Shown one piece after another: positions 48,806 to 49,333 of a DNA stretch of 64,000 nucleotides. How positions within the stretch are numbered: position 1 is the stretch's first letter; each line of letters begins with the position of its first letter. Made by a program: the position numbers and the translations under genes. The DNA is from Halopiger xanaduensis SH-6 (lineage in GTDB: Archaea; Halobacteriota; Halobacteria; Halobacteriales; Natrialbaceae): positions 124,001 to 188,000 of the forward strand of contig NC_015666.1 of the NCBI RefSeq assembly GCF_000217715.1, given 5' to 3'. Under the pieces are notes generated by a model that saw only the letters and a program-made list of their open reading frames with translations, was not told the origin of the DNA and did not search any database.

Positions 48806-49333
48806 TCACGCTGACTCCGTATCTGACTCGGGTCCAACGTACCGCATCGGAACGAGGTTCTCCTCGCCGCCGTCCGGCAGTTCGGCGATCATCTCGTGGC
48901 GCTCGAATCCGCAGTCCTCGTAGAAGGGGACCAAGCCTTCGCGACAGTCCAGCGTCAGCACCTCGAGGTCAGCGAGATCGGGGTGCGAGACGATCGCCTC
49001 GAGCAAGTCCCGGCCGAGTCCGTCGCCGCGTCGAGGTTCGGCGACGATAACGTTCACGAGAGCAAAGCTCTCGTGCAGCCCATCAGACGCGCAAAGCGCT
49101 TCTGAGGACGTCGTAGATCTTCCCGTAGTAGACGAAGTCCGTGAGGACGCGGCCGGCGGCCACGAGCTTGCCCGTCCGCTCGTCGCGGAGACCGACGACC
49201 GCGTCGGTGTTTTCGATCGCCGTGCGAACGTCCTCGAGAGTGCGGTCGTCCTACCACGCGTAGTTCCGGTAGCGCTCGTGGAGGTCGCCGAAGTTCGACT
49301 CGGTGAGTTCGTAGACCGTTTCGTACGACATGC
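48806..49333 (-). pseudogene. GNAT acetyltransferase pseudogene, interrupted
   Basis: Read from 49333: MSYETVYELTESNFGDLHER, YRNYAW, then an in-frame TAG (49251-49253), then DDRTLEDVRTAIENTDAVVG, VYYGKIYDV. A 54-bp insertion (49054-49107) then shifts the frame, and the C-terminal half resumes as VIVAEPRRGDGLGRDLLEAI and FYEDCGFERHEM. Removing the insert with one copy of its 4-bp ACGT duplication joins IYDV directly to IVAEPRRG in frame. Both lesions show the gene is dead, unless the 83-aa C-terminal piece (GTG start 49057) is translated. Confidence 0.85.
49054..49107. mobile_element. 54-bp double-hairpin element with 4-bp target duplication
   Basis: Two 21-bp hairpins: CACGAGAGC-AAA-GCTCTCGTG (49055-49075, perfect) and CAGACGCGC-AAA-GCGCTTCTG (49084-49104, one mismatch), joined by 8 bp. 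ACGT flanks the insertion on both sides (49050-49053, 49108-49111). Clean excision restores the host reading frame. It resembles a REP/BIME-like or miniature non-autonomous element; no transposase is nearby. Confidence 0.75.

Follow-up and report, generated by a model that had tools for sequence, protein, structure and literature searches.

REP-type hairpin elements and the enzymes that mobilise them have been studied almost only in bacteria. In one TnpA-REP system, cleavage takes place at a dinucleotide next to an 8-bp hairpin whose loop has 3 nt (PMC8266576). The CGTC-tagged REP repeats, which have no known transposase, have been reported from five bacterial phyla only (PMC3733652). On the archaeal side, the SMR-A repeats of Haloquadratum are about 110 bp long, bear prominent inverted repeats at their termini and strongly prefer the palindromes of PATEs and of IS605-type elements, and SMR repeat movement was termed 'enigmatic' in the same study (PMC3119063).

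Here we describe a small double-hairpin element that interrupts an acetyltransferase gene of Halopiger xanaduensis SH-6. We favour, with a probability of about 70%, the reading that it is a copy of a haloarchaeal non-autonomous REPIN-like family, mobilised in trans at CG by a putative recombinase that recognises the hairpins.

Results

The element and its host gene

The window, that is, the whole 64,000-nucleotide stretch of DNA analysed, contains the following features at this locus:

48806..49331, minus strand: host gene, the pseudogene of a GNAT acetyltransferase, whose frame is shifted by the insert and which also carries an in-frame TAG (ORF fragments and Pfam GNAT matches)
49051..49108, minus strand: inserted double-hairpin element, 58 bp (empty site in L011; GNAT frame regained on removal; covariance-model score 79.8 bits)
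49051..49054, plus strand: CGTT tag at one end (AACG on the minus strand), holding one of the two CG dinucleotides (AACG in 136/146 copies, GACG in 7, AGCG in 3)
49055..49075: hairpin 1, CACGAGAGC-AAA-GCTCTCGTG, a perfect 9-bp stem with an AAA loop
49076..49082: conserved linker CAGCCCA (TGGGCTG on the minus strand, the form found in 131/146 copies)
49083..49105: hairpin 2, TCAGACGCGC-AAA-GCGCTTCTGA, 23 nt with one mismatch and an AAA loop
49106..49108: GGA (TCC on the minus strand), terminal tag at the hairpin-2 side (TCC in 141/146 copies)
49109..49110: target CG, which occurs singly in the empty site and here a second time at 49051-49052

On the plus strand, 49051-49108 runs through CGTT, a 9-bp hairpin (21 nt), the linker CAGCCCA, a 23-nt hairpin and GGA, and on the minus strand the order is TCC-hairpin2-TGGGCTG-hairpin1-AACG. 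With its borders (49050-49111, plus strand), the locus reads ACGT-T-CACGAGAGC AAA GCTCTCGTG-CAGCCCA-TCAGACGCGC AAA GCGCTTCTGA-GG-ACGT, the leading C of hairpin 1 coming right after ACGTT. An earlier, sequence-only reading had described two 21-bp stem-loops with AAA loops in a 54-bp insert bounded by ACGT. Both stem-loops and the ACGT on either side are indeed present in this copy, and the element folds far better than its shuffles (z = -4.55; 0/200 equally good). The length given for the stem-loops holds for hairpin 1 (21 nt) and not for hairpin 2, which has 23 nt and one mismatch, and the insertion itself measures 58 bp (window 49051-49108).

Removal of these 58 bp from the window gene restores the GNAT frame (...GKIYD-VIVAEPRRG..., the same frame as in L011), as had been anticipated for a deletion of the insert. 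The comparison with relatives that had been suggested as a check points the same way. In a genome of the same genus (G001, locus L011), the gene is uninterrupted, with an open 165-residue frame, and the site reads GACGTGATC with no insert; a region of G023 (L012) likewise aligns as an uninterrupted gene, that is, as an empty site. Insertion at this site is confirmed by the same-genus empty site L011. The window gene carries a second lesion, an in-frame TAG at about 49253 on the minus strand compared with TGG in L011 (YAW*DDR). The acetyltransferase is a pseudogene for two reasons, the frameshift by the insert and the in-frame TAG.

Extent of the family

When 60 relatives were searched with the insert and its flanks, the empty sites came up and, as a separate group, many 80-88% matches to the insert alone in other haloarchaeal genomes; overall, hits of 80-89% identity occur in many haloarchaeal genomes. 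Twenty sequences were aligned to one plan, and 18 were used for a covariance model that matches 269/293 Halobacteriales genomes and 81/87 genera, the highest score being 85 bits. Of 120 genomes drawn from across the phylum, 23 had matches, 18 of them Halobacteriales; the five outside the order reached at most 33 bits, and beyond Halobacteriales the family is seen as weak matches only. A DNA pattern made of hairpin 2 and the linker was found in at least 114 stretches of GTDB genomes, and 80/80 titles among the matches listed are Halobacteria. The 40 plasmids matched are, where named, all haloarchaeal. The phage records and viral contigs searched held no match to the element, and Rfam held none to four copies with flanks at up to E = 1.

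Within the own genome, hairpin 1 with up to 3 mismatches has no other copy, and the covariance model finds two divergent matches only:

G000:C3:3570735-3570799 (L044, 33 bits): divergent double-hairpin match that still begins with CGTT and ends with GACG and whose linker contains AGCC
G000:C3:1221588-1221645 (L045, 27 bits): divergent double-hairpin match

The hairpin pair has two divergent matches in the own genome and relatives in 269/293 Halobacteriales genomes, and mobility, which a lack of both copies and empty sites was to have spoken against, is not refuted. The view of a REP-like mobile element too small to encode anything is borne out by relatives in almost all haloarchaeal genomes searched, by precise empty sites and by covarying stems.

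Variants with the linkers CGCG, TGGC, GCC or TGTGCG and other stems have the same CG-bounded two-hairpin plan (L205, L145, L155, L212, L238, L262). A further double-hairpin repeat of another kind, GTGGCGC-loop-GCGCCAC-GGGCAA-CCGGCGGC-loop-GCCGCCGG, lies near the element, in its right flank, at L293, L296, L297, L300 and L301.

Our literature search, which covered sources other than subscription papers and supplementary tables, found no description of this family, and the Haloquadratum supplement may list it. The double-hairpin element family is apparently undescribed so far.

Insertion rule and stem covariation

The 146 copies that were dissected have a common layout. Given for the strand opposite to that of the window, it is 5'-RNCG^TCC-hairpin-TGGGCTG-hairpin-AACG^YY-3', in which TCC, hairpin 2, TGGGCTG, hairpin 1 and AACG succeed one another. 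Of these copies, 71 are 56 bp long, 23 are 60 bp, 18 are 57 bp and 17 are 58 bp. The family ranges over 53-62 bp, with hairpins of 19-25 nt, a short linker, typically of 7 nt, and variable loops, mostly of 3 nt.

The target carries a purine at -4 in 136/146 copies and a pyrimidine at +1 in 142/146 and at +2 in 136/146, preferences that the detector did not impose; the CG of the 146-copy statistics is partly imposed by it, and the first, unfiltered BLAST loci show CG too. Since several contexts recur, independent insertions are fewer than copies; with each context counted once, 55 distinct sites follow R-N-CG^Y-Y, extended to C-R-N-CG-Y-Y-G, a target roughly symmetric around CG. Across all loci, 432 pairs of flanks adjoin directly (0 nt) and the spacing is otherwise mostly 56/57/58/60 nt, and empty sites are found at L011, L106, L120, L125, L136 and L201. 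Because the flanks are 0 nt apart when the site is empty and mostly 56-60 nt apart when it is filled, the insertion is precise and leaves a CG at both junctions.

In this regard, only CG is always present at both junctions, with no duplication beyond it. In the 146 copies, the left CG is preceded by a variable base (A/C/G/T) and the right CG nearly always by A, and the 4-bp ACGT duplication is therefore fortuitous: what had been taken for the target duplication is a coincidence of the window copy. Judged by sequence, one of the two CGs may equally well be a 2-bp duplication or belong to the element. The aligned junctions show that the ends of the element and its target obey one R-N-CG^Y-Y rule, as a joined circular form would.

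Both stems are maintained by paired change. Pairing is found in 97% of cells, 42 cells are changed on both sides, and the stem covariation amounts to 0.312 versus 0.095 for shuffles, slid registers pairing in just 26-52% of cells. Target sites were also considered as hairpin sites. Their hairpin enrichment is at best weak (p about 0.01 to 0.5, depending on the interval scored) and we do not rely on it.

Copies carried by other mobile elements

Copies are often hosted by tnpB genes, by a transposase gene called IS6-like on the strength of its translated motif rather than a database match, and by the repeated noncoding ends of IS1341-type elements. The copies of G014 stand in one common context. 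Those of G077 and G040 were considered as recent bursts and dismissed as such; all of them lie in one host context, which gives no evidence of recent independent transposition. Judging from such contexts, seemingly recently amplified copies in one genome are carried by the host element.

In two recurrent contexts with tnpB signatures, the copies are 57 or 60 bp long, so that 24/24 lengths are divisible by three, compared with the usual 56 bp of copies elsewhere, a pattern that suggests selection for keeping those insertions in frame. One tnpB element of G111 is empty (L281) and its relatives L282 and L283 contain an in-frame 60-bp copy, a polymorphism within one genome. In-frame copies of 57 or 60 bp within TnpB coding sequences occur at L018, L027, L040, L095, L282 and other loci; they lengthen the protein by 19-20 residues, either close to its C terminus or internally. 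Copies at the 3' end of tnpB may overlap the guide-RNA region. Frameshifting copies occupy the same codon (WLYAA) of the IS6-like transposase gene in several genomes (L014, L076, L079, L080, L106, L248), either as one old insertion that has spread or as a site repeatedly hit. At L018 and L164, an IS core has apparently been deleted between two element copies, a single copy being left at the fusion.

Inside a multicopy insertion sequence, such as a tnpB element or one with the IS6-like transposase gene, the element is also carried along as a passenger, and this accounts for much of its copy number.

Search for a mobiliser

About 1.1 Mb of loci contained no autonomous element with these ends and no mobilising gene. 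Half elements, sought as marks of an autonomous transposon, all proved to be related variants or else copies that were truncated or slightly diverged, with no gene-bearing version, and the larger insertions at the same target that were dissected looked like second elements or IS copies.

Y1 transposase genes are present in 50/99 genomes, IS110 enzymes in 11/99 and serine recombinases in 46/99; among 80 good genomes, IS110 occurs in 10 and serine resolvase in 44. Copy number in these 80 genomes (counted up to about 18 per genome) is not significantly correlated with Y1 (rho 0.22, p 0.053), IS110 (rho 0.06) or resolvase (rho 0.03). Its correlation with TnpB (rho 0.30, same genomes and counts) is expected, because copies ride in TnpB elements. 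The 15 genomes without Y1, IS110 and serine recombinase hold a median of 7 copies. On genomic grounds, these observations weaken Y1, IS110 and serine recombinases, each as sole current mobiliser, and are compatible with past activity.

The Y1/RAYT/IS200 partner envisaged by the sequence-only reading did not materialise. The own genome contains no Y1 gene, no Y1 element among the 30 Y1 loci examined has the element's hairpins at its ends, and the IS605-type ends of haloarchaea that were mapped via paralogous copies (TTTAGCTGA... and ...GTAGTTCAC or ...GTAGTTTAC) are unrelated to the element.

Discussion

Precise RNCG^YY insertion, stems kept by compensatory change, and conserved hairpin feet, linker and ends are read directly from the copies. 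On the favoured reading, a hairpin pair with a short linker and conserved tags would insert precisely at the CG of R-N-CG^Y-Y, adding 53-62 bp, through an enzyme that acts in trans, recognises the folded hairpins together with the tags and exchanges strands at CG. In H. xanaduensis SH-6, the element has inserted into the acetyltransferase gene and shifted its frame. A single-strand, HUH-like, hairpin-dependent mechanism would best fit the conserved hairpin feet, and we infer that the hairpins are recognised, probably while the DNA is single-stranded, in the way that REP sequences are by TnpA-REP.

The HUH-like part of this explanation, though not mobility itself, competes with a double-strand recombinase that uses a 2-bp core (IS607-type serine or IS110-type DEDD) and would insert a small circle at CG, the hairpins being protein-binding or incidental. 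Such a core is established for both IS607-type serine recombinases and IS110-type DEDD enzymes, CG is the sole common dinucleotide in a roughly symmetric target, and the junctions fit equally well. We nevertheless regard this as unlikely, given that IS110 (10/80 genomes) and serine resolvase (44/80) do not follow copy number, that the 15 genomes lacking both as well as Y1 still hold a median of 7 copies, and that the stem covariation would be left unexplained. A smaller chance is accorded to the element being a terminal-only PATE, in which the near-terminal palindromes of a core-deleted IS200/IS605-type transposon have fused and are moved by Y1 TnpA. The Haloquadratum example, with 52 bp, 22-bp palindromes and the lack of target duplication by PATEs, is similar in size and plan (PMC3119063), but the mapped IS605-type ends are unrelated to the element, 0/30 Y1 loci have these hairpins as Y1-element ends, the own genome is without a Y1 gene, and a TGGGCTG linker conserved across genera is unlike what separate core deletions would leave.

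On a purely passive view, the element would have entered insertion sequences in ancient times and have been multiplied by the transposition of these and by hairpin-to-hairpin recombination, which would account for the many copies in the same host context and for the apparent removal of IS cores by recombination between copies (L018/L164). This view is very improbable given the 55 distinct RNCG^YY contexts and the many precise empty sites, among them one for the plain acetyltransferase gene that is interrupted here. That the stems covary would also suit an immobile structured RNA or regulatory hairpin (terminator, sRNA), an idea rendered hardly credible by clear empty sites at many loci, by loops that vary, by copies inside genes as well as between them and by the lack of an Rfam match.

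Haloarchaea seem to hold several double-hairpin families in mosaics. We raise only tentatively, as a possibility that we doubt, that these have in common an order-wide archaeal hairpin-transposition system, with a CG-centred strand-exchange enzyme of a type new to mobile elements. In any event, over 90% of the Halobacteriales genomes searched hold the family, its insertion rule is exact, and empty and filled sites occur naturally in dozens of pairs, so that the way in which transposase-free haloarchaeal repeats move can be tested directly in hosts amenable to genetics. The family likewise explains small hairpins that disrupt haloarchaeal genes, as well as in-frame additions to TnpB proteins.

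Comparison with known systems

Among organelle double-hairpin elements, adjacent hairpins, selfish spread and a lack of coding capacity recall the present family; they are not known to follow an RNCG^YY site-specific rule. Classical MITEs share terminal inverted repeats with a DDE transposon and usually have a target duplication of fixed length, whereas the element has no terminal inverted repeat beyond the CG-tag and just CG in common at its junctions.

The haloarchaeal repeats of Haloquadratum come closer. PATEs, in particular the 52-bp terminal-only PATE, resemble the element in being haloarchaeal, in size (about 52-58 bp) and in their two ~22-bp palindromes (PMC3119063). PATEs cause no target duplication, and the element has only CG at both junctions, which may be a 2-bp duplication or element-borne. 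PATEs have ends in common with IS605-type transposons, and no such parent was found for the element among the mapped ends. SMR-A is likewise transposase-free, without clear target duplication, often located in IS605-type elements and without a known mobiliser (PMC3119063); the element differs in its length of about 56 bp and its ends TCC and AACG, with no such terminal repeats.

Bacterial REPINs and CGTC-tagged REP dimers share with the element two short inverted hairpins with unpaired outer tags (CGTC and CGTT in the element) (PMC3116915, PMC3733652), a short linker and copies in and between genes. Unlike them, the element is archaeal, with other stem sequences, mostly 3-nt loops and a fixed RNCG^YY rule. 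GTAG-type REPs/REPINs have a GTAG tag and a RAYT (Y1) gene flanked by hairpins, in contrast to the CGTY tag of the element. CGTC-type REPs have an 8-9 bp stem with complementary A/T at its first two positions, a 4-5 nt loop and a CCA-like tail, whereas the stems of the element begin with TCAG or CAC and its loops are mostly 3 nt. The element nevertheless bears the REP/REPIN hallmark, an inverted pair of short hairpins with outward CGTC/CGTT tags and a 7-nt linker. Because each of the systems compared departs from it in at least one tested defining feature, we call the element REPIN-like and do not file it as a member of any of them.
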